DNA of 64,000 nucleotides, from contig NZ_MIHA01000007.1 of assembly GCF_001722335.1 (NCBI RefSeq), forward strand, positions 207,599 through 271,598. The letters run 5' to 3'. Source of the DNA: Mycolicibacterium flavescens. Lineage in GTDB: Bacteria; Actinomycetota; Actinomycetes; Mycobacteriales; Mycobacteriaceae. The first letter of the stretch is position 1. Every line of letters starts with the position of its first letter. The notes under the pieces are model-generated. The model had not been told where the DNA came from. It saw only the letters and a list, made by a program, of their open reading frames with translations, and ran no database searches. A program made the position numbers and the translations under genes. Shown piece by piece: positions 21,396 to 53,632 of the stretch.

Positions 21396-22109
21396 TCAGT
21401 AACCGGTCGCCGTAAAGCCGGAGAATCCGTAGCCCGACGGTGGCCCGCCGTGGGCGTCCTTGTAGAACCCCATGCCGGGATCACCGGTAGGAAACGTCGG
21501 GTCGGTCGCCTGGACGAGCAATTCGTCGTTGAGATACAGCGTGATGACATCACCGACAGCCGTGGCTCTGAGGATGTCGCCATCCTGCGGAACCCTCACC
21601 GCATCGACGTGCGCCAAGGAGGTGAAGTCGCCGAAGCCGCCGTTCCAGCGAACAATCTTCGCGAACATACCATTGGTATGCATGAAGGCCTCATAGCCCT
21701 TCGCGCTGGTTGAGGTATCGCTCCATCGGAGCAGAACTTCCACCTCTCCGTAACCGCCGGAAGAGTCTTTGTGGATCACCGCGCAGGCCTGCTGGTCCGG
21801 GGGAAATCCGGACAAGCGTGCATAGGAATCGTCAAAACCACCCTGGCCGGTCTGCGTGCCGTGCGCGACCCCGTTCTGTGTCTGGACGGGAGTCCAGGAA
21901 GCACCCGCGCGAGACCAGGCGCCGCCCTCGGAAATCGGGAGTTCATCGACGGGGAAACCGGTGGAGTAGAAGGGTTCGCGCGCCGCCTCGTTGTCGCATG
22001 GAGGTCCGCCCCCGGGGGGACCCGGGCCCTCGGCCCGAATGACGGTCTCGCATCCGAGGGGCACGGCTACGACGCAGGTAGCGATGATGCCGGCGAGCGT
22101 TCTTCGCAT
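21396..22109 (-). CDS. Secreted concanavalin-like (LamG-type) protein, possible glycan binder
   Basis: 237 aa from ATG 22109 behind GAGGAG. The signal sequence MRRTLAGIIATCVVAVPLGC may be a lipoprotein signal, although the lipobox (VPLGC) is poor. The mature part has beta-sandwich-like blocks (EVEVLLRWSDTS, YEAFMHTNG, DILRATAVGDVITLYLNDELL, PGMGFY) typical of laminarinase/concanavalin-like domains that bind or cut glycans; no clear catalytic ExDxxE motif is visible. It diverges from the first polysaccharide operon, so it may bind the exported polymer. That role is inference. Confidence 0.65.
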   Translation of the reverse strand: MRRTLAGIIATCVVAVPLGCETVIRAEGPGPPGGGPPCDNEAAREPFYSTGFPVDELPISEGGAWSRAGASWTPVQTQNGVAHGTQTGQGGFDDSYARLSGFPPDQQACAVIHKDSSGGYGEVEVLLRWSDTSTSAKGYEAFMHTNGMFAKIVRWNGGFGDFTSLAHVDAVRVPQDGDILRATAVGDVITLYLNDELLVQATDPTFPTGDPGMGFYKDAHGGPPSGYGFSGFTATGY

Positions 22110-22543
22110 TTCAACTCCTCGGAAGACCTCGATTCAAGCGACCATAGACTTCCGACTGAGGCACAAAGGCCTGTCAGCAACTATTCGTCAATAACGCAAA
22201 TTTCCACAAAATGGTTGCTATAACGGCTAGGCTACGTCGTCTGAGTCCGCCCACAGTTGTGAACTATCGGCCGCCTTCAGTCGCGCAGCCGTACCCACCG
22301 CTGCCGCCGAGCGTTGGCCGATAACGCACCGATTTGCCAGCTCTGAACTGGTCATTCAATGTAGCGTTCGTGCCGCTGCTGTCCTCAGCATCAGAGAATT
22401 TGGAGCTGCCCGCGGGATCGCGTGTGACAACCGCTCGAGCCACCTAAGGAGCGAACCGGAAACCTCGACAATCTCGGGCGAACTTCGCCTTAAATTCATT
22501 TGTGTCGCTTGACTACATATTTAGCAAACAATAGACTAGCGCC
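22110..22543. other. Divergent intergenic region upstream of the polysaccharide operon
   Basis: Visibly AT-richer than its surroundings; no convincing coding frame on either strand. It contains the promoter at 22509-22537 and presumably the promoter of the LamG-like gene on the other strand. I see no repeat family or mobile-element end in it. Confidence 0.6.
22509..22537 (+). promoter_or_regulatory. Sigma-A-like promoter of the polysaccharide operon
   Basis: TTGACT, 17-nt spacer, TAGACT. The -35 and -10 elements are close to the housekeeping consensus and the spacing is optimal. Transcription would start near 22544, about 215 nt before the first start codon. Confidence 0.6.
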
Positions 22544-22759
22544 ATCTGCATCATGGGTGCAGGGAATGGCAAACCGTAGGGAGGACGGGTGCCGGCACGG
22601 TGTGCGAAACATCGACTCGGGTGGAGACGGGCTGAGAGGCCCGGTGCAGGGTCCGCATGACGGAACTCGCAGTCGGGTCTGGGCTCTTCCTGTTCGGAAC
22701 GTCCGAGTCAATCGGTCGGTGAGTGTTCGCGAAGTTGCGAACACTGACCTGGGGGACAT
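22544..22759 (+). promoter_or_regulatory. Long structured 5' leader of the polysaccharide operon
   Basis: About 215 nt without a credible ORF. Short hairpins follow each other: GTGCCGGCAC (22589-22598), GGGC-tgagag-GCCC (22630-22643), TCCG-catga-CGGA (22652-22664), CCGA-gtcaa-TCGG (22703-22715) and the large stem at 22718-22749. A 9-bp direct repeat GGTGCAGGG occurs at 22556-22564 and 22643-22651. It does not match a riboswitch class I can recall (TPP, c-di-GMP and c-di-AMP considered). A cis-acting RNA or a set of operators would fit. Confidence 0.5.
22718..22749. repeat. Strong inverted repeat directly before the ribosome-binding site
   Basis: AGTGTTCGC-gaagtt-GCGAACACT is a perfect 9-bp dyad (22722-22745). 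Allowing one mismatch, GGT/ACC extends it to 12 pairs. It ends one base before the GGGGG ribosome-binding site of the first gene, so as RNA it could affect translation, and as DNA it could be an operator. Confidence 0.7.
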
Positions 22760-24112
22760 ATGGAAATCCAGGAACTCTGTCGCGTCCTACGCCAACGTTG
22801 GCGAATCGTGGCAATCGCGACGTTGGTCTGCGTCTCACTCTCGCTCGGCTGGTCGTTGGCGGGCCCGGTCTCGTACAAGGCGGAGGGCAGGGTCATCATC
22901 TCGACCTCCGGCAGCCTGAGCACCGGCACCGACGCATTCCATGGCGAGCAGGTGTCCGTAGAACGGGCCCCGACATACGCGCAGCTGCTGAAGGGCCCGG
23001 AAGTTGCTGCGCGGGCGTCGAAGCGACTCCACGGCGACATCTCCGCTGCAACCATTCAGGACTCCGTCGACGCGCGGATCTCCTCCCGGCTCCCGATGGT
23101 GATCGTCAGTGCTCAATCACCGAACGCCAACGACGCGGTTCAGATGGTCTTCGCCGCCGAACAGGGTCTGCAGGAGTATGTCACCGAGATCGAGCGACGC
23201 GGTCGCGACGGATCACTGTCCTCGATAACGCTCAGCGGCGACCCCCCGACGGTTGCGCGGGTGGGCAACCCTGCGCTGAACGCGACGCTGGCGGCACTGC
23301 TGGGGCTTGTCCTGGGGACGATGCTCGCTGTCTACCGCGATCGAACGGATCCGGTTGTCAAGAGCGCAAACCAGATTGGACGCCTTGGCCTCAGATACTG
23401 CGGGTCGATCACGGCTACGGAAAATGCCTCGGCGCTGGACGACGCTTTCCGCCGACTCGCCGTCGGATGTGTGGTCTCCAACCAGCTCGACACGAAAAGG
23501 GTGCTGGTTGTGGGCGTCGACCGTGGATTCGAGACTTGTTTCATTGCAAGAGGTCTGGCCGGAGGGCTGGCGGCATGTGGACGTCGGACCACACTGGTCA
23601 ATGCAATCACCGGGAACCGGCGCGAAACCGGATTCGGATTGTCCGATGTGCTCAACGGATCGCGCACGTGGACAGAATGCATCCACCGGACCGGTACCGA
23701 TCACCTGTTGGAGATGGGCGTCGGTACCGAAAGCACCTCCCTTGACGCCCTGCTCATCGACAGCAGGAACGAGAACGGCCGCGTCCCGCGTGGCGATCGC
23801 GATGAGCACCTCGTCATCGGCGGACCGTCGATCGCTCACTCATCGACTGCGGTCGCCTTGACCGCAATCGCCGATTCGGCGCTGATCGTTGTCACCGAAG
23901 GTGAATCGCTCGTGTCGGACGTCCTTGAAGCCAAGTTGATCCTCGAAGCAATGGACACTCCGATAATCGGAATGGTCTACGTGATCGGTGCGCCGCTGCA
24001 TGACCGTGACGACAGCAATGTTCTCGCCGAGGTCGTACACGGTGCTTCGGGTCCGCATACCACGTCGAACAGCTCTCATCCCCGGCCCGTATCACCATCG
24101 GATGCGTCATGA
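22760..24112 (+). CDS. Wzz-type polysaccharide co-polymerase with degenerate kinase domain
   Basis: 450 aa. The first membrane helix is at about 16-35, the second at about 173-192 (NATLAALLGLVLGTMLAVY), enclosing a periplasmic domain with a Wzz-like start (SYKAEGRVIIS). The cytoplasmic part has the length and strand pattern of a BY-kinase ATPase (RVLVVGVDRGFETCFIARGLAGGLAACGRRTTLVNA) but the Walker A GKT motif and the Walker A' aspartates are missing, and there is no Tyr-rich tail. It should control chain length of the Wzy product without own kinase activity. First gene of the operon; its stop overlaps the next start. Confidence 0.8.
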   Translation: MEIQELCRVLRQRWRIVAIATLVCVSLSLGWSLAGPVSYKAEGRVIISTSGSLSTGTDAFHGEQVSVERAPTYAQLLKGPEVAARASKRLHGDISAATIQDSVDARISSRLPMVIVSAQSPNANDAVQMVFAAEQGLQEYVTEIERRGRDGSLSSITLSGDPPTVARVGNPALNATLAALLGLVLGTMLAVYRDRTDPVVKSANQIGRLGLRYCGSITATENASALDDAFRRLAVGCVVSNQLDTKRVLVVGVDRGFETCFIARGLAGGLAACGRRTTLVNAITGNRRETGFGLSDVLNGSRTWTECIHRTGTDHLLEMGVGTESTSLDALLIDSRNENGRVPRGDRDEHLVIGGPSIAHSSTAVALTAIADSALIVVTEGESLVSDVLEAKLILEAMDTPIIGMVYVIGAPLHDRDDSNVLAEVVHGASGPHTTSNSSHPRPVSPSDAS

Positions 24113-24900
24113 CGATGCGCGCAACAGGACGGTTGAGAAAAGCGGGAAGCCGGCTGAGCACGAGCAGGTTTGCCACCGTCGTGGTGGTGGTGCTGGCGGT
24201 GACGGTCACGCTACTGGCCAGTCAAGTGACCGACAAGATGCGTGAGACAGCGGTATCCGCACAAGCCATTGAACGACCGTCGGCGGCGACGCCGGTGTCC
24301 GAATCGCCGTCGGCGAAGGAGTTGGCGGTGTTCATCGGGGACTTGACCGACGGGTCAGCCGAAGGCGGTGTGGGGGAAAAGAACTGGACCTCAATCCTCT
24401 CCGCGAACCTTGAGAAGACTATTCCGCTGAGGACTGTGGTGGACAGCAGCGGCGGAGGTTCGGGGTACGTGGTCCGCGGGCCGAGTCCGACATTCGCTGA
24501 GCAAGTACGACGCCTCGTCACACCGGATGCGCGGGTGGTCTCGATATCTGGAAGCAGGAACGATGTGGTCGCAGAACCGAATCAGGTCACGGCGGACGCG
24601 CTCGAGACCTACACCCTTGTCGAATCGCTGGCGCCTCAAGCGCAACTGATCATCATCGGTCCCACCTGGGGTAACAGTGAGCCGAACGAAAGCATCCTCA
24701 AGACGCGGGATGCTGTCCGCGACGCCGCCGCCAAAGTGGACGCCCTCTTCGTCGACCCGATCCAAGACAGGTGGTTCACGAATGGCGAGCCAGGACTGGT
24801 CGGAGCAGACAACATGCACCCGACCGACCTCGCGAACGCGCGGATCGCCGAGCATCTGTATCCGGTCTTTCTCCAGGCACTGAGCGCGAACACCACCTAG
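24109..24900 (+). CDS. Membrane-anchored SGNH-hydrolase-like protein lacking the catalytic serine
   Basis: 263 aa; ATG overlaps the preceding stop (ATGA). One N-terminal membrane helix (about 21-40) is followed by an extracytoplasmic SGNH fold. The block I motif reads GDLTDGS instead of GDS(Y/L); the paralogue at 27521 has GDSYTEG at the same place. Block III (SRND) and the block V Asp/His (DNMHP) remain. SGNH proteins in polysaccharide clusters usually remove or transfer O-acetyl groups; this copy should be inactive by the usual mechanism and may act as binding or scaffold protein. Confidence 0.78.
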   Translation: MTMRATGRLRKAGSRLSTSRFATVVVVVLAVTVTLLASQVTDKMRETAVSAQAIERPSAATPVSESPSAKELAVFIGDLTDGSAEGGVGEKNWTSILSANLEKTIPLRTVVDSSGGGSGYVVRGPSPTFAEQVRRLVTPDARVVSISGSRNDVVAEPNQVTADALETYTLVESLAPQAQLIIIGPTWGNSEPNESILKTRDAVRDAAAKVDALFVDPIQDRWFTNGEPGLVGADNMHPTDLANARIAEHLYPVFLQALSANTT

Positions 24901-24955
24901 CCGGCATTGATGACCGGGTGGGGCGAGTCCAGCTCGACAAGACAGGGGTATCGAC

Positions 24956-26155
24956 GTGACCAATAGCATGAATTGGCTTACCCGCAAGCGCTGGCCACTC
25001 GTTGCGGTAGCGGCGGTGTGTGGAGCTCTGGTCGGCTACTTCATCGCCTTCGCCGCAGACCCTACCTACACCTCGAAGGCGACCCTGTATGTCGCGCCGC
25101 CGATCAGTAGCAGCCCTACGGACGCGGTGATGGGCGACCAGTACGCCGACAACCGCACGCAGTTATACCTTCAGCTCATCAAGAGTGACGAACTCGCCGG
25201 ACTCGTGGCTAAGGAGCTGAAAAGCTCTGAACCCGCGGCCGCGCTGGTCAAAAGCATTGACGCCATCCGCGTCCATCAGGCACCTCTCCTCGAGATCGAG
25301 GCACGAGGTTCTTCCCCGGAGGCAGCGCACTCGCTGGCCAAGGCCTACGTTGACCAGCTTCCGGAATTTGCGCGGTCGGTAGAGCAGAACAGCGGCCTGC
25401 GAGAGGGCTCTGCTCTGGTTTCGGTCGCCGGGCCGACCGAAATCACGCAAGGCTCCGGCGGTTTGCAGCCCTGGCTGACGTTGATCTTCTGCACCGTCCT
25501 GTTCGCCGGTGCCGCGTCGGCATATGTCATCAGAAGGAGCTCCCGAAATCCCACCGCACGCAACATCGGAGCTCTCCGCAGAGCAATGCCGACATCCTTC
25601 ATCGCAGAGGTAGGGCACGACCCCGCGGATATCCTGAAGTTCGGAGCCATGCTCTTCGCGGCACCCCATTCAACACGGCAGGTCATCTTCGCCGGCGCCA
25701 GGCGGGCAGATGCTCTTGAGGAATTCACCAGCGAGCTGACGCGGTCCCTGCGGGGCGCCGGGATAGCGTGCACACGTGTGAAATCCGGTGATCCGGTCGG
25801 GTCGAACGGGGGTGACGACGATCCGCACACCATTACGGTGTTCGACGCTCCTGGGCTCCTCGACGACAGCCACCGGATCGCCGCTCTGGCATTGCGTTCA
25901 AGAACTGCGGTGATCGTTGCGCGTCGGACGACCCTGGTCGAAGACGTCGTTCAGCTGCAGAAGCTGCTGAATTTGAACGGAATTGCCGTCAAGGGCGTCA
26001 TCAGCGCCCGTCGCACAAGCGCGAAGGACGCCAGGAGACATGATGAAGTCATCGGTGTTGCCTCTGACGGTGCCCCCGGAGACACTCATCCAACGCCCGA
26101 GTTGTTAGAGGCCGGCACCGGTCCGCGTCGCGAGAGCCCTACCCGCGATGAGTAA
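24956..26155 (+). CDS. Second Wzz-type co-polymerase with degenerate kinase domain
   Basis: 399 aa from GTG 24956 (AGGGG upstream). Membrane helices at about 13-34 and 170-192 flank a periplasmic domain beginning TYTSKATLYVAPP, the typical Wzz/Wzc opening. The C-terminal cytoplasmic half is again related to BY-kinases in pattern (QVIFAGARRADALEEFTSELTRSLRGAGI...TITVFDAPGLLDD) but has no Walker A lysine. It is unlike the first copy in detail, so the pair may form a hetero-oligomer controlling chain length. It overlaps the polymerase gene that follows. Confidence 0.8.
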   Translation: MTNSMNWLTRKRWPLVAVAAVCGALVGYFIAFAADPTYTSKATLYVAPPISSSPTDAVMGDQYADNRTQLYLQLIKSDELAGLVAKELKSSEPAAALVKSIDAIRVHQAPLLEIEARGSSPEAAHSLAKAYVDQLPEFARSVEQNSGLREGSALVSVAGPTEITQGSGGLQPWLTLIFCTVLFAGAASAYVIRRSSRNPTARNIGALRRAMPTSFIAEVGHDPADILKFGAMLFAAPHSTRQVIFAGARRADALEEFTSELTRSLRGAGIACTRVKSGDPVGSNGGDDDPHTITVFDAPGLLDDSHRIAALALRSRTAVIVARRTTLVEDVVQLQKLLNLNGIAVKGVISARRTSAKDARRHDEVIGVASDGAPGDTHPTPELLEAGTGPRRESPTRDE

Positions 26156-27524
26156 CCTCCAACTCCTGGTGCTGGCATTGATTTCGGTTGCCGCAGCGGT
26201 GTACTGGAGTGTCAAGTGGACGAGTGCGGCGTGGGCCCCGACGGTCTTGGCGTTGATCATGCTGCTCATGGCTTTCGGTGGCCCGGTCTGGGATTGGTCC
26301 AAGTGGAGCGGTGGCTCAGGTCTGAGCCCCACCGTGAGGTCGGCCTCGTTCGCCGAGTCGCAAGCGGTGACCGCGTTCCTGTGGGCCACCATCGGGGCGG
26401 CGTTGTCATCGCTGGCGGTCCCGCGAACGCAGGAGATCGTGCGCACCGGCGATACTTGGTCTCCATCGAGGAAAATCTCGATTGCGATTGTCACCACCGC
26501 GACGATCAGCCTGATCGGGTTTCTACTCGGACAGGGCCCGAGCATCGTCAGAAAACCAGTCTATGGCGAGTTCGACGGGAATGCGTTCATCCTGCGCGTG
26601 TTCTGGCCTAGCGGCCTGATAGTCGGTTTGATCTGCCTGGCATTGATCGCTGTCGAGAAAAATCGAAGGCTGCGCTTGCTCATGCTGGCAGTCGCCGCAT
26701 TGTGGTTCCTCGCGACGACCGTGGAGGGCAGTCGGACCGCGGTGGCTTTCCCGATCGTGGGCGCGATGTTGATAATTCACCACGAGATTTCTCGACGACG
26801 ACTGCATCTACCCATGATCGCGGCGGCGTTCACGCTTCTTGCTACCGCTGTTGTTGTGTTCAGTATCAGCTTGCTATCTCGCTCGATACCGCACGGCATT
26901 CTCAATCTTCCGAATGTCGTGGGAGTGACACTTGCAGACGCACGCGCGTCGACCGATTCGTACTTGTACCCGCTCAAGCAGCTAGCATCCTCGGTCTTCG
27001 TCTCGTTTCCCATCGCCGAGCAGTCCGCAACCTATGAGGTGGGATTGGACGTGCTGGTGGCGAATGCCAATGCCCTGCCCGGAACCGCGCAACCGGCCGA
27101 ACTCGAACGCTATTGGCCCTATGAATGGGTGCCGCTCTCTTTCGCCGGAACCTGGTTCGATGCAGCCGGCTGGATCGGCCAATTCCTCCTGTTCGGCGCC
27201 ATTGGCTGGATGTCCGGCAAGACCGCACACAACCTTCAGCGAAGCCAGTTTCAAACACTTTGGTTCGTGCCAATTTATACCGCCGCCATGATCGGTGCAC
27301 TGTCGGCCCAGTACTCGTCTCGTATGGTCTGGAGACTCGTTTCCATCGCGGCTTTTCTCTTCTTCGTGTCTTTTCTGCTCCGGCGTACGCGGCAGTGGGA
27401 GGGACTACACAACGGCGATCAAGGGAAAGGGCCGCCGGAAGTGCCCGACGACGGAGCCAGAAGCGGTCATTCGGGGAGGCTGACTAGCTCTCGGCGCCAA
27501 TTGGCGGGAGTTGACCGAACATGA
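26148..27524 (+). CDS. Wzy-like polysaccharide polymerase
   Basis: 458 aa with about 12 hydrophobic segments and a sizeable extracytoplasmic loop late in the protein (about 270-330, between PHGILNLPNVV and FAGTWFDAAGWIGQ), as in O-antigen/EPS polymerases. The residues SRTAV before a membrane helix resemble the conserved SR(T/G) region of oligosaccharide repeat unit polymerases. Polymerase families have little sequence conservation, so the call rests on topology plus the co-polymerase genes on one side and SGNH, flippase and transferase genes around it. Overlaps both neighbours (8 bp and ATGA). Confidence 0.75.
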   Translation: MSNLQLLVLALISVAAAVYWSVKWTSAAWAPTVLALIMLLMAFGGPVWDWSKWSGGSGLSPTVRSASFAESQAVTAFLWATIGAALSSLAVPRTQEIVRTGDTWSPSRKISIAIVTTATISLIGFLLGQGPSIVRKPVYGEFDGNAFILRVFWPSGLIVGLICLALIAVEKNRRLRLLMLAVAALWFLATTVEGSRTAVAFPIVGAMLIIHHEISRRRLHLPMIAAAFTLLATAVVVFSISLLSRSIPHGILNLPNVVGVTLADARASTDSYLYPLKQLASSVFVSFPIAEQSATYEVGLDVLVANANALPGTAQPAELERYWPYEWVPLSFAGTWFDAAGWIGQFLLFGAIGWMSGKTAHNLQRSQFQTLWFVPIYTAAMIGALSAQYSSRMVWRLVSIAAFLFFVSFLLRRTRQWEGLHNGDQGKGPPEVPDDGARSGHSGRLTSSRRQLAGVDRT

Positions 27525-28336
27525 GTCACAAAGCCAAAGCACCAACAGACAGGCATTGGAACAAGACCGGGATAGGCGCTCTGATTCTCGCCGTCGTCGT
27601 AATCGTGGGCGCTGCCGGCATCGCAGCTACGCGCGCAGATCAACCGCTCCCGACCGTAACCAAGGCGCCGATCACAGCCCAGAACCCGAGAGAGATGCTG
27701 GTAATCGGAGACTCCTACACAGAAGGGACCCCTCTGGGCGGCGAGGGAGACAAGAACTGGACCCAATTGGCGCTGCGCCAACTTCGCAGAGAAGGTGTCG
27801 ACATCACGGCAACTGTGTCGGCTGCCGGGGGGTCGGGCTATGTGACACGCGGCCTGTCCGGAACGGTTTTCGGGCAGGCGTTGCAGAGCGCGATATCGGC
27901 AGACGGGGGAAGCGAAGCTCCAGAAGATATCGTGCTGATCTTCGGAGGGACGAACGACCAGATCGCGCCGCGAGACACCGAGGCCGTCGCTGTCCGCGAT
28001 GTGCTGAAGTCCGCACGGGCGCGAGCACCCCGGGCGAAACTGATCGTCGTGGGCCCCGTATGGCCCGATTCTGAGCCCTCACCGGCGGTCCTCCAGATTC
28101 GTGACATCGTGCGGGCCGAAGCCGCAAGAGCGGGAGCCACATTCGTAGATCCGATAGCCGACAGGTGGTTCTCGGCTGAGCCACAACTGATCGGCGACGA
28201 CGGCGTACATCCCACCGACATGGGCCATGTGTATATGTCGGAAAGGCTGTTGCCGGTCATTCGTTCCGAGCTGACGCGGGCGCAACAGGAACGGGAAGCG
28301 GCGGCCGAGCAGCCCGTGCGCGCCGGCGGCCGATGA
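27521..28336 (+). CDS. Membrane-anchored SGNH hydrolase (probable O-acyl esterase/transferase)
   Basis: 271 aa. A single N-terminal membrane helix (about 18-38) anchors an extracytoplasmic SGNH domain. All blocks are intact: GDSYTEG (catalytic Ser), GSGY (block II), GGTND (block III) and DGVHPTD (block V Asp/His). It is a paralogue of the protein at 24109 in the same operon. It probably removes or moves acetyl groups on the exported polysaccharide, matching the acetyltransferase genes at 31114 and 34612. ATGA overlap with the polymerase gene. Confidence 0.85.
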   Translation: MSHKAKAPTDRHWNKTGIGALILAVVVIVGAAGIAATRADQPLPTVTKAPITAQNPREMLVIGDSYTEGTPLGGEGDKNWTQLALRQLRREGVDITATVSAAGGSGYVTRGLSGTVFGQALQSAISADGGSEAPEDIVLIFGGTNDQIAPRDTEAVAVRDVLKSARARAPRAKLIVVGPVWPDSEPSPAVLQIRDIVRAEAARAGATFVDPIADRWFSAEPQLIGDDGVHPTDMGHVYMSERLLPVIRSELTRAQQEREAAAEQPVRAGGR

Positions 28337-28399
28337 AGGTGGATACGTCTATGGTGTGCACCGACGTAGGTTCACCGGCCATCCAGGAGTGGTGCAGCG

Positions 28400-29632
28400 G
28401 TGACACGTAACTCGGACATATCTCGCCGCCATCTGATGGTCTCGGGATTGACAGTCGCCGCCGTCGTCGGCGGCTCGAGTTGCACCACCAATTCCCCGCC
28501 GCCGCCGACAGTGCAGGACTACTTCCAGTGCGATCCGCCGCGCGACTACCCCACCATCGACTATGCGGTCGTGACGGACGCCGCTTTCGACGGAGGCGCC
28601 GACCCTTCTGGCCGACGTGACTGTTCGAATGCCGTGCGCGCCGCGGTGGCGACCGGAAAACCGGTCTACATTCCGCCGGGCAGTTATACCTACCACGGCC
28701 CCGGCATCGACCACCCAGCGCCCTTCATCGTCGGCGCCGGCCAAGGCCGAACCACTGTCACGCTCGGGCCGGAGACCACGTTCATCGATTCAGACCAGGT
28801 GTGGTTGAGCCTGACGCTTCGCGGAATCAGATTCAACGGCGGAGTTGGCCACGTCAAGAATCGCTTCCACGGCATCAACGTGACCGACTTCCATACGGTG
28901 AGCGATTGCGCGTTCATCAACTACAGCGGTGCCAGCATCTCGACAAACAGCGTGGATCACCCCTACTGGAAGATAGAGGGAAACATCTTCAGGGGATCGA
29001 ACTACCTGACGTCTATGGGCATCGCCCTGTCAGGTCTGACTGACGGCACCACGATCGCGAACAACGCATTCCTCGCCAACCGCGTACACATCAAGGTCGG
29101 CCGCGGGGGTAACAACACCTACATTCACAACTGCGATTTTCTCCGGTTCGGAGGGCAGCAGGGCGTTCCGCGAATCGATGTGTGGTTCACCCTGTCTGTG
29201 GACGAAATAAACTGCGGCGCTGGAATGGTCATCACGCGATGCAAGTTCGGGAATGAATTCCTCGACGAGCGGGACCTCCGAATCGTGTATGCAGACGAGA
29301 CGGACGGGCGCATGAACGACGAGAGGTGGCCGCTGCTCGACAAGCCGTCCACGAACTGGATAGGCGGGCACACGGTCACGGCGGTATTCGCCAACGGCAT
29401 CGGTGATCGCGCGCCGATCCCCTTGGTCCGGTCCACCACATCGAACGTCGTCGGGTCCACATACGGGCCGGTCACCATGGCCGGTAACTCGGGGGCGCCG
29501 ATCCTGTCGACGATCATGCCACTGCGGAACGGAGGACACAGCAACTACGTCGGGCCGCTGCTACGCGCCACGGGATATACCGGTCCGCTACCGCGACTTC
29601 TGGTGAGCGACCACCCGCCGGCGGGACGGTGA
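28400..29632 (+). CDS. Tat-exported right-handed beta-helix lipoprotein (lyase-like)
   Basis: 410 aa from GTG 28400. The N-terminus has a twin-arginine signal (SRRHLMVSG) and ends in GGSSC, a plausible lipobox, so the protein is probably a surface lipoprotein. The body has pectate-lyase-3-like opening features (DGGADPSGRRDCSNAVRAAVATGKPVYIPPGSYTY) and repeated beta-helix turns with NNAF, NCDF, RCKF blocks. Such proteins in polysaccharide operons cut the cognate polymer or bind it. It is the sixth gene of the operon; catalytic residues cannot be assigned by eye. Confidence 0.8.
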   Translation: MTRNSDISRRHLMVSGLTVAAVVGGSSCTTNSPPPPTVQDYFQCDPPRDYPTIDYAVVTDAAFDGGADPSGRRDCSNAVRAAVATGKPVYIPPGSYTYHGPGIDHPAPFIVGAGQGRTTVTLGPETTFIDSDQVWLSLTLRGIRFNGGVGHVKNRFHGINVTDFHTVSDCAFINYSGASISTNSVDHPYWKIEGNIFRGSNYLTSMGIALSGLTDGTTIANNAFLANRVHIKVGRGGNNTYIHNCDFLRFGGQQGVPRIDVWFTLSVDEINCGAGMVITRCKFGNEFLDERDLRIVYADETDGRMNDERWPLLDKPSTNWIGGHTVTAVFANGIGDRAPIPLVRSTTSNVVGSTYGPVTMAGNSGAPILSTIMPLRNGGHSNYVGPLLRATGYTGPLPRLLVSDHPPAGR

Positions 29633-43875: not shown

Positions 43876-43894
43876 GAGTTCTTGAAGGAGTGAT

Positions 43895-45523: not shown

Positions 45524-46174
45524 TCAGCTGTGGTGCAACCGGACCAGGGCCTTTTCGGCTACGAAGGCTTCGGCATAGTACTGATGGCACTGAACCCCCC
45601 GGACACGCATCAACCCGAGGAAGGCGTCACTGTCGAACCAGGGCTTCTCGGCCTGACTCGGATAACAACTCTCGATCACTGTCACCTTGAGTGCGGCGGT
45701 ATCCCGGTCTACCGGCAGGTAGACGTCCGGATTGGGGAGGTCCGACTCCCACTTGAGGACCTCATAGCCGAGTGTCAAGTGGTCACGGAACTCCGTTGGC
45801 ACGAGCTCGGCGAGCAAGCGGTGATCCTGGTGGTGATCTCCGCGTTGCGGCGCGATCACCAGGTTCGGGTCGCACCCGGCGCGGAACCTGCCCAGGTGCT
45901 CTTTGACTTCGCCCCAGTGCTGCGGAAGCCGGCCGTCGGGAAGGTCCGACACCGTCATCCTGACCTCGGCTGTACCGCACAGAGCGGCGAGGGCTTCCTT
46001 TTCTTCGACTTCACGTTGTGTGCCACCACCGGTCAGCACCAGGACATTGACCACGATGCCCGGGTTCTCGCGAACCAGTTGCAAAAGCGTGGCGCCGGCG
46101 CCGATAGCGATGTCATCGCAGTGAGCCCCCACAAGTGCCACACTGTCGACCGTCCCCGGCGCGAGCCCGATCAT
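45524..46174 (-). CDS. PIG-L/LmbE-family deacetylase
   Basis: 216 aa. The zinc motif AHCDD near residue 17 (usual AHPDD, Pro replaced by Cys) and the later HHQDH supply metal ligands. Family members remove N-acetyl groups from GlcNAc-type sugars or related conjugates. ATG overlaps the stop of the cytidylyltransferase gene (ATGA). It may de-N-acetylate an amino sugar in the repeat unit. A mycothiol (MshB) role is unlikely given the context and length. Confidence 0.85.
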   Translation of the reverse strand: MIGLAPGTVDSVALVGAHCDDIAIGAGATLLQLVRENPGIVVNVLVLTGGGTQREVEEKEALAALCGTAEVRMTVSDLPDGRLPQHWGEVKEHLGRFRAGCDPNLVIAPQRGDHHQDHRLLAELVPTEFRDHLTLGYEVLKWESDLPNPDVYLPVDRDTAALKVTVIESCYPSQAEKPWFDSDAFLGLMRVRGVQCHQYYAEAFVAEKALVRLHHS

Positions 46175-46971
46175 CGCCCTACCCCGGCAGACTCATGCTC
46201 AGATTCCCAGACCGCCCACGGCCGAATCCCCTTGTTGTAGTCGGCGTCCAGCTCAGCACGCTCCTTGAATGTGTCGGCTGGTCTCCAGAACCCGTCGTGT
46301 CGGTAGCCGATGAGGCGGCCAGTTCCGGCCAGCGAGAAGCAAGCGTCACCGACGAGATCTCCGTTCTCCGGTATAAGGTCGATGACATCCTGATTCAAAA
46401 CGAAGTATCCGCCGTTGACACCGACCGGGAACGCCGTGATCGGCAGCACTTCCTTGACCTCGCCCGTCGAAGCGACGTCGACGCAATGAAACGAGGCGTT
46501 GGGCGGAACGATCAACATGGTGGCAGTAGCGGCGACGTTCAGCGCCTTGTCGATCATCTTGTCGAGCGGCGCGTCGGTCAGCACATCCGAATAGTTGGCC
46601 AAAAAGTACGGGTCCTGGCCGAGGTGCTCACGCACTCTGCGCAGACGCTCACCGATCGGCGACTCGAGTCCTGTGTCGACGAAAGTGATCGTCCAGTCCG
46701 AAATGTCGGACCTGAGTAACTCGACTTGTCCGTCGTGCAGCACGAAGTCGTTGGACTGGGTCTCGCTGTAGCGGAGGAAGAAGTCCTTGATCTTCTCGGC
46801 ACCGTAGCCCAGGCACAGGATGAACTCCTTGTGACCGTAGTGCGCGTAGTACCGCATCACATGCCACAGCAATGGGCGCGGGCCGACCATTTGAAGTGGT
46901 TTGGGGATGATGTCGCTCTCTGCGGTACGCATCCGCATGCCATAGCCGCCACAAAACAGAACCACCTTCAT
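46171..46971 (-). CDS. rfbF: Glucose-1-phosphate cytidylyltransferase-like nucleotidyltransferase
   Basis: 266 aa, matching RfbF. The nucleotide-binding start is VVLFCGGYGMRMRTAESDIIPKPLQMVG and further blocks include GYGAEKIKDFFLRY, TFVDTGLES and GVNGGYFVLNQDV. It joins glucose-1-phosphate to CTP giving CDP-glucose, the entry to CDP-deoxy sugars. A clear CDP-glucose 4,6-dehydratase is not present in the locus, unless one of the SDR proteins at 40037 or 50623 takes that role. ATG 46971 has GAGGAG upstream. Confidence 0.87.
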   Translation of the reverse strand: MKVVLFCGGYGMRMRTAESDIIPKPLQMVGPRPLLWHVMRYYAHYGHKEFILCLGYGAEKIKDFFLRYSETQSNDFVLHDGQVELLRSDISDWTITFVDTGLESPIGERLRRVREHLGQDPYFLANYSDVLTDAPLDKMIDKALNVAATATMLIVPPNASFHCVDVASTGEVKEVLPITAFPVGVNGGYFVLNQDVIDLIPENGDLVGDACFSLAGTGRLIGYRHDGFWRPADTFKERAELDADYNKGIRPWAVWESEHESAGVGR

Positions 46972-47049
46972 AGCGGTCTCCTCTCGACATCTGTGTTCAT
47001 GGGAAAGTTGTGGGCGTTCGACGTCGCACGTTCGACGCGGGCTTTCTGA

Positions 47050-48243
47050 TCACGCCGACCGCCTCGGGCGAAGGGCGGCCTCCAGGTACGACTCCGCCAA
47101 CCGCTGTCCGACGGGAGTCATACCCAGGTCGTTGATGACCGCTGCTCGGCCTCGGGCACCCATTGTGCGGGCGATCCCGGGATCGTTGATCAGGGTGCGG
47201 ATGGCACGCGCAAGGCTGCGTGGTCCGGGTTCGATAATTATGCCGCAGCGGTGTTTTCGAATCAGAGCGGCAAGTCCGCATTGCTCGGTGGCGACAATTG
47301 GAAGACCAACTGACATCGCCTCGAGAACCGCCATCGGGTACGGTTCCGGTCCGATCGACGGAAGGATGTACATCGCTGCGCGACGCATTCGAGCGGGCGC
47401 TTCTCCTGCCCCGACCGGGCCCTCCCATCGGACATTATCGGCCTTCGAAGCAGCTGACTGCACCTTCTTGCCTTCACCTTCATCGGGTCCGACCAGGGTG
47501 TATTTCGCCCTGACGCCCTCTGAGTTGAGAATGTGTGCCGCCTCCACAAAGTCGATGGGGCGCTTGCGCGGATGAAGACGCGCGAGGAACAGCACCTCTG
47601 GAACATCGCCGACCGCCGAAGCCGGCTCATAGAGCGGCACGCCGTTTCCGAGCGGCGAGAGGCGGGCCTCGCCACGCGCCACCTCGTCCAGGGCATCACT
47701 TTCTTCGCTGGTGAGATAGAACACCTCGTGCGCTGCGCGCAACAGTCTGCGGACGAGTAGCCCGTCGACCAGTGGCGCAAGTGGATGCGCCCCAGGGAGG
47801 ATCATGCCGTGCGGTTGCAGCACGAAGGGGATCCGCATCCGCATGAGAAGCGTTGTCAACGGTAACAGCACGAGGTCCCGTCCCAGATGCACATGTGCTA
47901 CGTCGAATTCGTCGCGAGCGCCGATGAGCCACTTGACCAAGCCGGGCGCCCATAGCCCGGCGAAACCCGTACGCGGCACCAGTCGTCGTGCGGGTCGAAG
48001 AACCAGCGGTATCCCATCTTGACGAGTGGGAACGACTTCGTAGTCACGCTGCGCCGCAGCCACCACGACCGAGTGTCCGCGGTCACGCAGCGCGACAGCT
48101 TGATTCAGCGCGACCCTGACGGGACCGCCGTAAGCGCCATCCGGACTGAGCATGGTGACCGCTTGAAGTATCCGCACACCATCTTTCGGTGATCGCGGTG
48201 GGACTCTGCGGTCATCTCGATTCGCCTGCACGGCGGTGGTCAT
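47050..48243 (-). CDS. GT4-family glycosyltransferase
   Basis: 397 aa from ATG 48243 (TGATG overlap with gmd); a longer frame to 48297 runs into gmd. GT-B fold: N-terminal LSPDGAYGGPVRVALNQAVALRDRGHSV, donor-side domain with EVLFLARLHPRKRPIDFVEAA and the EX7E-like segment PEPYPMAVLEAMSVGLPIVATE. It transfers a sugar from a nucleotide donor, retaining configuration. Donor is unknown; GDP-fucose or GDP-mannose is plausible from gmd next to it. Confidence 0.9.
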   Translation of the reverse strand: MTTAVQANRDDRRVPPRSPKDGVRILQAVTMLSPDGAYGGPVRVALNQAVALRDRGHSVVVAAAQRDYEVVPTRQDGIPLVLRPARRLVPRTGFAGLWAPGLVKWLIGARDEFDVAHVHLGRDLVLLPLTTLLMRMRIPFVLQPHGMILPGAHPLAPLVDGLLVRRLLRAAHEVFYLTSEESDALDEVARGEARLSPLGNGVPLYEPASAVGDVPEVLFLARLHPRKRPIDFVEAAHILNSEGVRAKYTLVGPDEGEGKKVQSAASKADNVRWEGPVGAGEAPARMRRAAMYILPSIGPEPYPMAVLEAMSVGLPIVATEQCGLAALIRKHRCGIIIEPGPRSLARAIRTLINDPGIARTMGARGRAAVINDLGMTPVGQRLAESYLEAALRPRRSA

Positions 48244-49271
48244 CAGCTGGCCCAACTCATGAGCGCCGGCTTGTCGATCCACGGTGTGCCCGAGCATCCG
48301 AGCGCCTCGATATCGGCGTCGACCATGATGGCGGCCAGTTCCGGTGCTCGGACGTCGGCCTTCCAGTCGAGTAACTGGTGTGCCTTCGTAGGATCACCGA
48401 TGAGCGAATCGACTTCGGTAGGGCGCACGTATCCCTCGTCGAACCGGACGTAATCCTGCCAGTTCAACCCCGCGTGCTCGAAAGCGAACCCCGCGAAGTC
48501 GGCGACTGAATAGCCTTGACCCGTCGCCAAGACGTAGTCGTCCGGTTCGTCAACCTGCAGCATTCGCCACATGCCCTCGACATACTCGGGCGCATAACCC
48601 CAATCCCGCACGGCATCAAGATTCCCCAGGAAGAGCTCGCTCTCGAGGCCGGCCTTGATGCGGGCGACGCTCCTGGCGATCTTCCTCGTCACGAAAGTTT
48701 CGCCCCGCCGCGGTGATTCGTGGTTGAACAGGATCCCGTTCACAGCGAACATCCCGTACGCCTCGCGATAGTTCCTGGTGATCCAGTACGAATACACTTT
48801 CGCAACGCCGTACGGCGACCTGGGGTAGAACGGCGTCAGTTCATTCTGAGGCGGCGGCGAAGCGCCGAACATCTCGGAGCTGGAAGCCTGATAGTACCGG
48901 CACGAAACACCCGCGAGCCGCACCGCCTCCAGCAGGCGGACACTGCCGACACCTGTCGTGGTACCGGTGTACTCCGGCTCCTCGAATGACACGCGCACAT
49001 GCGATTGGGCAGCGAGGTTGTAGACCTCGTCCGGGTTGATCTTGCTCAACAGCATCGCTAGCCGACCGCCATCGCAGAGGTCACCATAGTGAAGGAACAG
49101 CCGGGTGTCGGGACAATGCGGGTCCTGGTAGATGTGCTCGATCCGGGTGGTGTTGAACGTCGAAGCACGCCGGATCAGGCCGTGGACCTCATACCCTTTG
49201 GCCAACAGCAGTTCGGCCAGGTAGGAACCGTCCTGCCCGGTGATTCCGGTTACCAAGGCGACCTTTTTCAT
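48243..49271 (-). CDS. gmd: GDP-mannose 4,6-dehydratase
   Basis: 342 aa, normal length. NADP loop [37 protein letters not shown], the catalytic YGVAK, and the late [11 protein letters not shown] and [10 protein letters not shown] are all in place. It turns GDP-mannose into GDP-4-keto-6-deoxymannose, which Fcl (35215) reduces to GDP-fucose. It is coupled to glycosyltransferase genes on both sides by start/stop overlaps. Confidence 0.94.
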
Positions 49272-50626
49272 CGCATACTCTTTCGGTGTCGGTCAGCGGT
49301 CAAGGTCCTGCGACCCGCCGCCAGTTGCCTTATCCATTCGTCGAGCCGGCCAAGGGCAGCCGGTTCACCCATGGCATCCGCGGCATATCGGATTCCGTTT
49401 GCTCCGAGACGCTGCCGAAGCTGTGAATTACCGCCCAGTGATATCGCGGCTTCTACGAGCAGGTCGGGCTTGCCGCAGTCGATCACAATGCCGGCTCCTG
49501 ACTTCCTGACTTCCTGTGCGGCGTTGCTTTCCGGGCTGGTCGCAGCCAGTATCGACGTCCCGCTTTGGAAGTAGCTGGTGAGCTTGCTCGGTATCGACAT
49601 CTCTGCCACGCCAGGCTTCTCGTTGAGTAGAAGGACGTCCGCCGCCTGCAATGCGGCAGGGAAGTCATGTTCGGGAAGTGGGTCGCGGATCTCGAGATGA
49701 GCCGACTGCCCGGCCAGGCGTTCCAACGCTCGACGTTGGTTACCGTCGCCGACGAGGACGAAACGGAGCTTCAGTTTCCTCCGATCTGCCAGTTGTGCAG
49801 CCTGAACAACGTTCTCGAGACCCTGTTTCACCCCCATACTCCCGGCGTGCAGAACGACTGTCTCGTCTTCTGGCCACCCGAGTCGCCTACGCATGACAGC
49901 GGAATCGTGAGTGTTGTCGGACCTGACGTGTGTCCAGTTCGGCACCGTCTCGATCCGGTTCGGGTCTACACCGAGGTTGCCGACCAGGTGGGAGCGGAAT
50001 CGGTTGTGGGCTACCACAACAGAATCGGCCTGGCGTAGAACCCACCCCTCGACTCGCCGCGCCGCTTCGGCGGCCGGCGATCCCGCGCCCTGAAGTTCCC
50101 TCACGCCGAGCGAGTACAGATCTTGGACCCAGATGCCGAGTGCTGGACGGGGCGCGGCAGTGCGATCTCGCAGACACACCGCGGCGGTGGCGATCAGCGC
50201 CGGAGTCGTGCAGATGATCACATCTGGACGGCGCCATCGCGATGACACCGCACGCAGTCCGAAGGTGGTCTCCATGACGAGTCTGCGTGAATTGGAGACT
50301 CCTTTCGGAACCGTGTGTCTCACTCTCTTGACGGGCACGCCGCCGAGCACCTCGGTCGCCGTCCACTTCCACCGGTACTCGGGCGCCAGCCTCCACTCGG
50401 GGTAGTGCGGCATGCCGGTGATCACATTGACGCGGTAGCCGCGTTCACTCAGTCCATGACACAGCCCGGAGGCGTACGGGGCGATCCCCAGCGGTTCGGG
50501 GTTGAAGTTGATTCCGATGTAGGTGACCGATATCTGCTTGTCCAGGCATGAACCCCCACCGGGTTCGGTGCCGGCGGTCGCCGACGGGCGAATCAGGCCA
50601 GATCTGAGCGGAACCGCTGCGTTCAT
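49268..50626 (-). CDS. WcaI/WbuB-like GT4 glycosyltransferase
   Basis: 452 aa from ATG 50626 (ATGA overlap with the upstream SDR gene). N-terminal signature [45 protein letters not shown] is that of the colanic-acid WcaI group; the donor domain includes [23 protein letters not shown] and [20 protein letters not shown]. WcaI-type enzymes often add fucose to the lipid-linked sugar, which would fit gmd directly downstream. Acceptor and linkage are not readable. Confidence 0.9.
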
Positions 50627-51591
50627 CCCGCCACCGCCAGCTGGTCTTCGCCCACCGCGCCGTAAGCCTCGGCAGGAGAGCGACGTTGGCTCTCGTCGAG
50701 CCACCGGACGGTTCGTGCGATTCCCTCGGCAAGATCGACGTTGGGCCGCCAACCGAGCTCACGTGCATCACCGTTGGGTGGTATCGCCCCGGTGTCTCGG
50801 ACAGCTCCTCGGATCGACTCGTCCACTTCGGAGGCATCGGTGAGCCGCCCGGAACCGACGCTGTATGTCCCGGTCACATCGAGCGGTGCCGCGCCGGCGC
50901 AGACGAAGGCATCGACGGCGTCATCGATGTACACGTAGTCGAGCGTGAGCTCCTGGTGCGGGGCCGATATGCGTTGGCTACCGTTGATCATGGCGCTGGC
51001 CACGGCCGCGATCGAGGCTCCCGGCTCCGCCTGGCGTTGACGAGGTCCATAGATATTCGCCAACCTCAAGGAGATCGGCGCCAGCCCGTACATGGCTCCA
51101 TAGGCATGCAGGTAAAGCTCCGCAGCGAGCTTGGCCGCTACGTGCGGTGAATGCAGCGCATACGCCACATCCCCACGGGATTGCGGTCGAGTCGTTGCAG
51201 TACCGCTCAGCCCGTACGCGGCATAGACGATCCTTCGCACGCCGGTGCTGCGACTCGCTTCACACAGGTTGATCGTGCCGAGAATGTTGCTGCGAGCGTC
51301 GAACTCGGGATTCGACAACGACGCCGACAAACTCGTCTGTGCTGCAAGGTGATAGATGACTTGCGGCCTTGTCCCGTCAACGATGTCTACGAGCTCGGGC
51401 GCCTGGATGTCGAGTGAGATGAGCGTGAACCTTTTCTCGCCCAGTCCGTTGCCGGCGATGGCCGCATCGAGATTGCCGGCATGCCCCGTGCTCAGGTTGT
51501 CCACTCCGATCACCTGATGCCCATCCGACAGCAGACGGTCAACCAGAGTGGCGCCGATGAACCCGGCGGCGCCGGTGATCAGGACACGCAT
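50623..51591 (-). CDS. Extended SDR (UDP-glucose-4-epimerase-like) with substituted catalytic Tyr
   Basis: 322 aa. The NAD loop ITGAAGFIGATL and HLAAQTSLSASL are normal, as are the late blocks NIYGPRQ and DYVYIDDAVDAF. The usual SxY...PYxxSK signature instead reads SPHVAAK: the catalytic tyrosine position is His, and the upstream SSxxVYG reads AAYGLSG. The enzyme is therefore probably inactive as an epimerase or has another activity. It overlaps the WcaI-like gene and, by 13 bp, the GT2-like gene. Confidence 0.82.
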   Translation of the reverse strand: MRVLITGAAGFIGATLVDRLLSDGHQVIGVDNLSTGHAGNLDAAIAGNGLGEKRFTLISLDIQAPELVDIVDGTRPQVIYHLAAQTSLSASLSNPEFDARSNILGTINLCEASRSTGVRRIVYAAYGLSGTATTRPQSRGDVAYALHSPHVAAKLAAELYLHAYGAMYGLAPISLRLANIYGPRQRQAEPGASIAAVASAMINGSQRISAPHQELTLDYVYIDDAVDAFVCAGAAPLDVTGTYSVGSGRLTDASEVDESIRGAVRDTGAIPPNGDARELGWRPNVDLAEGIARTVRWLDESQRRSPAEAYGAVGEDQLAVAG

Positions 51592-52601
51592 GATCGGTAC
51601 TCCACGATGTCGTCTCGCCGCCTGCGTGGGTGTTTTCTCAGCGCAGAGAACCTGCCTTGAAGGGAGCTCCAGAAGCAGTTCACCTCACCGACGAGACGGT
51701 CCCCTGTGGACACCTCCCACACGGGGTCATCGGTCAGTCGCCGGGCAATCCGGATTCGGTTGGCGAGTCGGTCCCGCATCGCAGCCCTACGGTGGAACGC
51801 CTCGCATGTATGCGTTTCAGTCACGAGGGTGTCCGGCATTCCGACGAAGTCACCGAACCGAAGAAGCCGTGTCCAGAGATCGAGGGCCTGCCATTCGGCC
51901 TCCTGCTTCCGCAGGTCACGACAACGTTCGAACGCGGCGCGTCGAAACATCACTCCCGCAACGGGTCCGATCGGATCGCATCCGCTACGGACAATGGTTC
52001 GCACTGTGCACTGTCCCGATCGCACGCCAACGATCCGCCTGCTACCGCAACGGTGTTCAGGGCGCGCGATGCCGTGCTGTGCGTCGCGGGTTCCGGCGGC
52101 CACGAGGGCGATCCCCCGGTCGCTTTTGAGCACACGCAATTGGGCAGCGATGCAATCGGGGTGGAGGGTGGCGCCGGCGCCCAACAGTTTGATGAAACGT
52201 CCCCGACTGTTATCGAGCACGACGTTGAACCCGGCGGCGACCGAAACGGCTGCCGCGGTTTGCACCCTTCGGATTCGAGGGGCGGCTGCGGTACCGATGC
52301 CCGTGTGGACAAGTTCGGCTGCCGCCCCCACGATCACGATCTCGATCTCGCTGATGCTCTGCGCAAGAATGCTGTTGATCGTGGCCCGCAGCGGCGACCC
52401 AGCCTCGTTGGCGATGACACCCACCGAAACGTCGGGGCTCCACCTCTGGGCCTGTCCCACCACCGGCCGGTACGCCTCCGCGATGTCGGCCCAACCTGTG
52501 ACGGTTTCGCGGACTCCCGGCATGCAGTGCCCACCGGTTCGTTCGTCCGGTCGGGGCCGTGCCGGCGGCTGATCCTCGATGAGCGGCAACGACGGACTCA
52601 T
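51579..52601 (-). CDS. GT2-like glycosyltransferase with altered metal-binding motif
   Basis: 340 aa. The GT-A opening is visible (VSVGVIANEAGSPLRATINSILAQSISEIEIVIVG) and also the VAAGFNVVLDNSRGRFIKLLGAGATLHPD segment, where active GT2 enzymes have a D-D/DxD motif (lDaDD); here it reads GAGATL. It may not use a metal-bound donor in the normal way. First gene of the large minus-strand operon; no ribosome-binding site stands out at ATG 52601, and M at residue 27 is an alternative start. Confidence 0.75.
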   Translation of the reverse strand: MSPSLPLIEDQPPARPRPDERTGGHCMPGVRETVTGWADIAEAYRPVVGQAQRWSPDVSVGVIANEAGSPLRATINSILAQSISEIEIVIVGAAAELVHTGIGTAAAPRIRRVQTAAAVSVAAGFNVVLDNSRGRFIKLLGAGATLHPDCIAAQLRVLKSDRGIALVAAGTRDAQHGIARPEHRCGSRRIVGVRSGQCTVRTIVRSGCDPIGPVAGVMFRRAAFERCRDLRKQEAEWQALDLWTRLLRFGDFVGMPDTLVTETHTCEAFHRRAAMRDRLANRIRIARRLTDDPVWEVSTGDRLVGEVNCFWSSLQGRFSALRKHPRRRRDDIVEYRSCVS

Positions 52602-52906
52602 ACCGTCACTGCCAGATGAACTTTGGTAATCAACGTTGTCCCCCCGGAGCGCTTTCGACTACCCCACAGTGAGCTTCATGTGGAGGTTTTCGAAAGTTAG
52701 AGTTTCGACATGGAGGTTCGCAAGACCGCCTCGCCGTGGTTCACGTCAGCTACTGCAGGCATTGGAAGCAACAACGTTGTCAGCGACCAAGGGACTGATC
52801 CGCCAGTGAACTCGATAACCACTCGTACACTATGGATTCCGCGACATGGGTTCGTACATGGACCATCCGATCGAAGTTTCTACTAGTTCCCGGTCTAGAT
52901 CCTCGC
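52602..52906. promoter_or_regulatory. Intergenic region with two sets of direct repeats upstream of the minus-strand polysaccharide operon
   Basis: 305 bp without a credible ORF. CAACGTTGTC occurs at 52631-52640 and 52772-52781 (core CAACGTTG is a palindrome). TGGAGGTT occurs at 52681-52688 and 52711-52718, start to start 30 bp, about three helix turns. This is the promoter region of the GT2-to-oxidoreductase operon and lies just downstream of the NarL-type regulator gene, a likely controller. Confidence 0.55.
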
Positions 52907-53632
52907 TCAAGCCTCGCGGCGGGGGATCGTCCGCGAAATCGCTGCCGCCTGAGCCCGCGAACTCACGCCGAGTTTGGTTAAAAGGTTGTGTACATGGTTC
53001 TTTACGGTGTGCACAGCAATGCATAGCGTCTCTGCGATCTCCCGGTTCGAAGCACCTGCCTCGAGCATTCTCAAGATCTGGGTCTCGCGAGATGTGAGAA
53101 CTAGTTCCTCCGCTCCCCCCTGACGCTGTGCAGCGAGTGCAGACAGCCGCCGAAGGAGGATCGCAGAAACAGCAGGCGAACAGGCGGATTCGCCCGCAGC
53201 AACCTTGCGGATCAGAATAAGTAGGTCCTCCAGCGACTCGTTCCGCAGGTGGTAGCCCGCCACACCGGCCTCGGCGCACGCGACGATTTCGGGTTCATCG
53301 TCCTCGGACATGCCCATTGCGATCACCTGCGCGCCCGGCGCACTGGAGAACATCCGACGCAGCAGCACCGCACTGTTGCGTGTCGCGACGTTCAGCAAGA
53401 TGACCATGGGTGCCGAATCATGCAGTGCCGCAGTCAAAGAATCGAGATCCCACGCCATGGTCGGACGAGCTGCAGCGTTTGCAGCGATGACTCCAGCGAG
53501 ATACTCGCGGTACAGCTTGCTGTCGTCGACGACCAGCACGGTCATCTCGGGGGCAGTGAGCACGCCGCGCGCCGCGGGGAACATCCGAGTATCTTGGAGA
53601 ACTCGCTGACCATTCTCTGCCTGGCTGACCAC
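52907..53632 (-). CDS. NarL/LuxR-type response regulator with atypical receiver domain
   Basis: 241 aa from GTG 53632, 5 nt after GGGGGAGG; a longer start at 53683 lacks such a site. The receiver has the acidic pair (LVVDDSK) but the phosphoacceptor Asp is Asn (ILLNVATRN, usually LLDVxMP) and the conserved Lys is Arg (GYHLRNE). The C-terminal LuxR helix-turn-helix is intact (LTSRETQILRMLEAGASNREIAETLCIAVHTVKNHVHNLLTKLGV). No histidine kinase lies nearby. It is the likely transcription factor of the polysaccharide locus, working without phosphorylation. Confidence 0.85.
   Translation of the reverse strand: MVSQAENGQRVLQDTRMFPAARGVLTAPEMTVLVVDDSKLYREYLAGVIAANAAARPTMAWDLDSLTAALHDSAPMVILLNVATRNSAVLLRRMFSSAPGAQVIAMGMSEDDEPEIVACAEAGVAGYHLRNESLEDLLILIRKVAAGESACSPAVSAILLRRLSALAAQRQGGAEELVLTSRETQILRMLEAGASNREIAETLCIAVHTVKNHVHNLLTKLGVSSRAQAAAISRTIPRREA

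Follow-up and report, generated by a model that had tools for sequence, protein, structure and literature searches.

A probable exchangeable Wzx/Wzy-type surface-polysaccharide locus flanked by convergent cholesterol-catabolism operons in Mycobacterium

The window analysed here is a 64,000-nucleotide stretch of contig NZ_MIHA01000007.1 from Mycolicibacterium flavescens; between the genes hsd4B and ltp2 it carries an island of approximately 33.3 kb (21064..54365) whose roughly 28 genes were placed largely in polysaccharide synthesis by Pfam, NCBIfam and PDB comparisons. We consider it likely that this island is an exchangeable Wzx/Wzy-type surface-polysaccharide locus, resembling in its behaviour a capsule or O-antigen serotype locus, at a conserved Mycobacterium site flanked by two convergent operons for cholesterol catabolism. 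The initial annotation had described a Wzx/Wzy-type locus between hsd4B and ltp2 of a mycobacterium, which our analysis confirms, and had called it inserted; it is not a singular insertion, and that interpretation was half right, as the locus is one occupant of a shared exchangeable site. The novelty lies in this shared site and in the fusions of the locus flippase to other pathway components.

The hsd4B-ltp2 site and its variable contents

The window is mycobacterial, with Ltp2 98% and Hsd4B 93% identical to those of G018, the closest sampled relative and, like M. agri (G001), a member of the genus sample. In G018 the site is nearly empty: hsd4B is followed by a DUF1942 gene, then a hypothetical gene and then ltp2, nothing further being matched, and the G018 DNA aligns to window positions 17116-21063 (86%) and 54366-56365 (90.6%), leaving about 74 bp between the aligned blocks versus 33.3 kb in the window. 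The corresponding window genes are hsd4B (18271..19131, + strand; MaoC and MFE-2 hydratase domains), presumed to be hsd4B from its position; the DUF1942 gene (19357..20295, +; PF09167 180.5 bits); hyp281, the last left-flank gene (20323..21168, -; 77% in G018); and ltp2 on the right (54368..55534, -; NF005892 718.3 bits, over cut-off). The same short arrangement occurs in the close relatives G108, G110, G113 and G128, and with about 2 kb extra in G046 and G120. GC content is 62.7% in the island, compared with 68.1% and 66.3%. None of the signs of an integrase-borne genomic island (integrase or transposase, att repeats) was found: a Pfam scan of the 30 island open reading frames (ORFs) of at least 150 amino acids at E 0.001 returned no integrase or transposase domain, a repeat search returned nothing marking the island ends, and tRNA and Rfam scans of the whole window were blank.

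To place this arrangement within the genus, 148 genomes were surveyed, of which 135 had Ltp2 and 135 had Hsd4B at set thresholds, and the interval was measured in the 122 with both flank genes on one contig. Left out were two genomes with ltp2 without hsd4B, three that had hsd4B but no parsed ltp2 (the ltp2 row of G117 went unparsed) and ten with the two genes on different contigs. The flank genes were convergent as parsed in 121 of the 122; the remaining genome, G083, wraps the record start and its interval was measured from its DNA. The gap was below 0.5 kb in 10 genomes, 0.5-2 kb in 52, 2-5 kb in 30 and 5-10 kb in two, thus below 10 kb in 94, and it was 10-57 kb in 28, G083 included. Contents were examined with locally built profiles for all 28 large intervals and for eight of the 94 small ones. 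At least one glycosyltransferase was found in 22/28 large intervals versus 0/8 small, and a match of the polyprenyl-phosphate sugar-1-phosphate transferase (PHPT) type, the initiating enzyme of Wzx/Wzy pathways, in 10/28 versus 0/8. Further loci (G002, G003, G005 and G007) were chosen for a PHPT beside ltp2 and stand outside the 28; among named species, M. agri, M. neglectum and M. frederiksbergense have a PHPT near ltp2. The flanks are therefore fixed and the cargo differs, as in an exchangeable locus, and the gene set of the window is not core-conserved in all mycobacteria.

PF02397 initiating enzymes (PHPTs) occur in 112/148 genus genomes, and Wzx/Wzy-type initiation is therefore common in the genus. 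The statement of the initial annotation that Wzy-dependent polymers are rarely described in mycobacteria does not extend to the frequency of these enzymes, although no title or abstract start among those listed by a literature search, with most subscription papers outside its reach, concerned a mycobacterial Wzx/Wzy polymer. Literature searches returned no paper on transfer at hsd4B/ltp2, and none tying the MSMEG_596-598 tags to polysaccharide. PHPT relatives (60-64%) were also seen outside the hsd4B-ltp2 interval, at L160 (G123), L161 (G106) and L162 (G149), accompanied at L160 by the C-methyl-sugar genes as well; the module therefore has more than one chromosomal home.

Cargo and flank phylogenies conflict. 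Trees were built for the 12 loci, that of the window among them, whose PHPT was nearly full-length; G072, G093 and G115 were excluded for partial PHPT matches. The Ltp2 tree has two clades with 100/100 support, and the PHPT tree rejects the eight-member Ltp2 clade (approximately unbiased test, p-AU 2.4e-5); conversely, the PHPT tree unites G125 and G144 with 100/99 support, a grouping that Ltp2 rejects (p-AU 6e-13). Pairwise identities run the same way, as G125 and G144 are 83% identical in Ltp2 and 78% in Hsd4B but 90% in Gmd, 85% in one family 4 glycosyltransferase (GT4) and 80% in PHPT, whereas G125 and G083 share 94% in Ltp2 but 68% in PHPT, their cargo being otherwise different. Given this strong conflict between cargo and flank trees, the site behaves as an exchangeable, serotype-type glycan locus. 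In G026, G091, G043 and others, Ltp2 is as close to the window as in one group (83-84%), with Hsd4B at 84%, well above the group's other members, which looks as though the two flanks had separate histories.

The window cargo, judged by gene-by-gene identity, is a mosaic. Its gmd is 81-83% identical to those of G144, G125 and G026, and G144 and G125 also match one GT4 (63-64%), the flippase (44-46%) and the flippase neighbour (48-49%); its fcl is nearer to G003 and G007 (57-60%). Matches to cmetB (75-79%), cyt (64-68%) and pigL (54-59%), and in part to sdrA (73-76%), come from the set G001, G002, G003, G005, G083 and G115, although not every gene is matched in each. In 40 intervals and three other loci there was no match above 80 bits and 60% coverage for wzzB, wzy, the lyase-like gene or wzxA, and the remaining plus-strand genes had distant matches only.

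Flippase fusions and the predicted pathway

The most unusual feature of the locus, absent from the initial annotation, is that the flippase WzxB and a Wzz co-polymerase module form one polypeptide (wzxB-wzz, 31854..33803, -), an architecture found in the window and three database relatives. In two sister loci a flippase of the same family is instead fused to a Wzy-like domain and the nearest Wzz is free; this second architecture is present in these two loci and in 76/120 relatives among the matches listed. The adjoining gene (33803..34615, -; no Pfam match) has relatives in the sister loci G144 and G125. With members in 5/249 order-level genomes and 7/148 genus genomes, the flippase family is rare in isolates. 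Because the flippase swaps its covalent partner and the free partner changes accordingly, the fusions support a Wzx-Wzy-Wzz complex, and we lean towards the view that in these actinobacterial pathways the flippase, the polymerase and the co-polymerase are assembled into a single physical machine. Such a complex has been proposed from mutant complementation, alongside a WzyE-WzzE complex (PMC10030265); the three functional parts described there are the same, here coupled by gene fusion. If our reading is correct, this naturally occurring exchange of partners would support that proposal directly at the genome level, and single-chain fusion proteins would be available for structure work. The fusions make the old question of whether Wzx, Wzy and Wzz act as one complex testable on single polypeptides; the literature search returned no paper on a Wzx-Wzy fusion.

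The flippase-plus-polymerase-like family showed no significant match to the window Wzy (hhalign E 0.058, probability 0.95%), and a profile comparison of the two window flippases, WzxA and WzxB, was also not significant (E 0.043, probability 1.2%), leaving homology between them unsupported. Domain scans of full-length flippase-plus-second-domain proteins, both as single proteins and across 48 members, were nearly blank: TIGR04370 matched two members (best E 0.0063) and PF14296 one (E 0.062), while the unrelated PF12555 also matched three (E 0.002). The polymerase-like half of the G144 fusion protein had no NCBIfam match when scanned alone, and the structure comparison of P0057, a flippase with a polymerase-like half, covers residues 1-403 only. 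In the class-level genomes G435, G523 and G633 the polymerase-like domain lies inside longer frames of 790, 1047 and 1519 residues, which are perhaps further fusions.

Other components of a Wzx/Wzy pathway were also recognised, the polymerase only tentatively. The PHPT (43895..45487, -) matches TIGR03025 with 417.4 bits, over cut-off, and WbaP in the PDB (E 1.4e-47), the WbaP and WcaJ models falling below their cut-offs on it. There are two flippase-like proteins, with the MOP superfamily represented; the second is the membrane protein WzxA (29682..30950, +; 69 homologs), assigned from sequence. Of the three Wzz-like modules, that of wzzB (24956..26155, +) is a polysaccharide co-polymerase-type chain-length determinant with 39.4 bits to PF02706 versus a cut-off of 25.5, and that of wzzA (22760..24112, +) scores 24 bits against the same cut-off. 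WzzA has a tyrosine-autokinase-like tail with weak autokinase matches, including TIGR03018, and no Walker A lysine by eye; the tail may be a pseudokinase, for which EcpK in Myxococcus offers a comparison (PMC12004946). The polymerase-like wzy (26148..27524, +) has 17.7 bits to TIGR04370, below cut-off, and a weak WaaL/SEDS-like match by VIA; Foldseek with this protein returned no match at E 0.001 or better.

Among the nucleotide-sugar genes, the PDB comparisons make the assignments of gmd (48243..49271, -; PF16363 447.2 bits) and fcl (35215..36195, -; GDP-L-fucose synthase, E 3.2e-110) clear. Two sugar C-methyltransferases were found, one at 37761..39080 (+; PF08484/PF08421, PDB mycarose 3-C-methyltransferase E 5.5e-55) and a 3-C-methyltransferase at 42595..43875 (-; the same PDB enzyme at E 4.7e-83, TcaB9 E 1.4e-67), with two sugar-nucleotide epimerases/dehydratases (40037..41077, -, PF01370 145.5 bits; 50623..51591, -, PF01370 152.7 bits). 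The sugar-1-phosphate cytidylyltransferase-like gene (46171..46971, -; TIGR02623 185.7 bits, under cut-off; PDB glucose-1-phosphate cytidylyltransferase E 2.1e-47) is in the same block as a UDP-galactopyranose mutase (UGM)-like flavoprotein (41125..42498, -; PDB UGM E 2.2e-24), a PIG-L deacetylase (45524..46174, -; PF02585 56.4 bits) and an F420-dependent LLM-class oxidoreductase (39052..40311, -; TIGR03621 265.3 bits, over cut-off; true start probably further in). Four glycosyltransferase genes lie on the minus strand: 36192..37385 (PF13524 30.9 bits), the GT4 genes 47050..48243 (PF00534 91.3 bits) and 49268..50626 (PF13579 72.1 bits), and the GT2-like 51579..52601 (PF00535 23.3 bits, at cut-off). 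Acyltransferase-like proteins are encoded at 34612..35214 (-; hexapeptide type, PF00132 43.4 bits) and 30964..31836 (+; left-handed beta-helix, Hexapep 19.5 bits, below cut-off).

In the pathway that these genes suggest, the PHPT would load a sugar-1-phosphate onto polyprenyl phosphate, which in mycobacteria is decaprenyl phosphate. The glycosyltransferases would then assemble a repeat unit that contains L-fucose, supplied through gmd/fcl, and probably a 3-C-methylated sugar, possibly a furanose, for which the cytidylyltransferase, the C-methyltransferases, the epimerases and the UGM-like enzyme would account; the hexapeptide acyltransferases would decorate it. Fucose, a 3-C-methyl sugar and acetyl are the predicted constituents, and such a product is plausible from the gene content. 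The MOP flippase would carry the unit outward, the Wzy-like protein would polymerise it into what is presumably a surface polymer, and the Wzz modules, one of them joined to the flippase, would set chain length. Between species such loci would be swapped and shuffled, probably via their conserved flanks.

Comparison with known systems and alternative readings

The locus shares with Wzx/Wzy pathways for O-antigen, enterobacterial common antigen, capsule and exopolysaccharide a PHPT, a MOP flippase, a Wzy-like protein, Wzz and nucleotide-sugar genes; it differs in its mycobacterial host and in having flippase and Wzz on one polypeptide, or flippase and a polymerase-like domain in the sister loci. 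The pneumococcal cps serotype locus sits between dexB and aliA, and loci of this type likewise have fixed flanks, variable cargo and conflict between cargo and flank trees; here, in contrast, the flanks are cholesterol-catabolism operons and the variation is seen between species. Models of the mycobacterial envelope rest on arabinogalactan, mannans and glycolipids. A fixed site bearing glycosyltransferases in 22/122 genomes, with PHPTs in 112/148, predicts capsule-like surface polymers differing between species, with possible consequences for phage adsorption, aggregation and survival in the environment. Another actinomycete, Actinoplanes missouriensis, also has putative exopolysaccharide clusters (PMC13390465).

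Several observations weigh against an exchangeable Wzx/Wzy-type locus. Sequence gives little backing to the names Wzy and WzxA, and for Wzy fold gives little as well; the Pfam scan of the island ORFs showed no cell-wall ligase, exporter or mobility domain; and the polymer itself is a prediction. The two junction zones share neither a direct repeat of 10 bases nor an inverted one of 11, and for this reason the recombination route is inferred. Six of the 28 large intervals (G016, G071, G080, G101, G139 and G148) have no recognised glycosyltransferase, so the site takes other cargo too, and the interval-content profiles, a product of iterative building, may give counts that are too high or too low; completeness of the surveyed genomes is unstated. 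The clades tested were picked after identities had been seen, and G026 is a long branch. Large intervals are present in G071, G074 and G144, close relatives by Ltp2 (95-97%), and both gain and loss must therefore be frequent. In M. smegmatis, where cholesterol clusters are placed at MSMEG_5903-5943 and MSMEG_5990-6017, with KstD at 5941 and CYP125 at 5995, the tags MSMEG_5953-5966 from the same interval are listed as cholesterol-induced versus androstenedione (PMC4881515), and this makes a site without any link to cholesterol less likely.

That the locus is instead ancestral to the genus and lost in most lineages, its variation reflecting decay and not exchange, seems improbable to us. Recurrence of large intervals in distant genus members would fit such a history, as would the 46 tags left between the two M. 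smegmatis clusters (PMC4881515), but in five close relatives the interval is short, orderly and occupied by one and the same pair of genes, the cargo is mosaic and conflicts with the flank trees, and its GC content differs. We give equally little credence to a lipooligosaccharide or glycopeptidolipid-like glycolipid as the product. Mycobacteria are known for such glycolipids, into which C-methyl and deoxy sugars would fit, and the weakness of the Wzy name leaves room for one; the scanned island ORFs, however, contain none of the polyketide synthase, nonribosomal peptide synthetase, PapA or MmpL domains of those loci, and a PHPT together with three Wzz modules is what a polymer pathway would be expected to have.

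It is somewhat more conceivable, if still doubtful, that the island makes two glycans, one from a plus-strand set (the two wzz genes, wzy and wzxA) and one from a minus-strand set (wzxB-wzz, PHPT and sugar genes). The two flippase-like proteins and two convergent blocks would suit this division, as would the lack of matches for wzzB, wzy, wzxA and the lyase-like gene across the 40 intervals and the three additional loci; homologs of wzy and wzxA moreover have four equal longest-contig values (33395, 39096, 36576 and 17656) and apparently travel together. Against it, the island has a single PHPT and a single recognised polymerase.

Relation to the cholesterol genes and further features

The initial annotation had the locus inserted into the cholesterol regulon, which is correct by position: the island lies between the ends of two convergent cholesterol operons. 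It splits neither operon, however, and has no exact KstR-type motif inside. With TNNAACNNGTTNNA as the consensus, the window has four exact matches versus 0.17 expected: near its left end (2732-2745), at the start of the cholesterol-catabolism gene kstD in the left flank (16570..16583, +; kstD at 16516..18267, +, NF005882 986.7 bits, over cut-off), and two beside a P450 gene (60428-60441 and 60507-60520, +). None of the four is within the island, a count of exact matches in which degenerate sites were not searched, and by this measure the island would lie between KstR operons and outside the regulon. A terminator and promoter scan of 52500-55000 gave no more than shuffled sequence and speaks neither for nor against read-through out of the ltp2 operon.

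Adjoining ltp2 is a LuxR-type regulator gene (52907..53683, -; GerE 65.4 bits) with relatives in many large intervals. Its receiver domain is degenerate and seems to lack the phospho-acceptor Asp, the presumed acceptor being replaced by Asn; across the 29 aligned sequences from intervals of this kind that have a residue there, this column has two Asp, 18 Asn, six Ser, two Thr and one Arg. Some intervals have two to four LuxR-type matches, partly fragments.

The remaining island genes encode a secreted lipoprotein-like protein with a lipobox read by eye (21396..22109, -; no Pfam or NCBIfam match), two GDSL/SGNH hydrolases (24109..24900, +, PF13472 35.9 bits, over cut-off; 27521..28336, +, PF13472 80.8 bits) and a beta-helix, pectate-lyase-like protein (28400..29632, +; PF12708 22.2 bits, below cut-off). 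The DUF1942 protein that adjoins the variable site, which we take to be MPT63-like, is of secreted type and has a stretch of GSQGTP and PPAQG repeats at its C-terminus.

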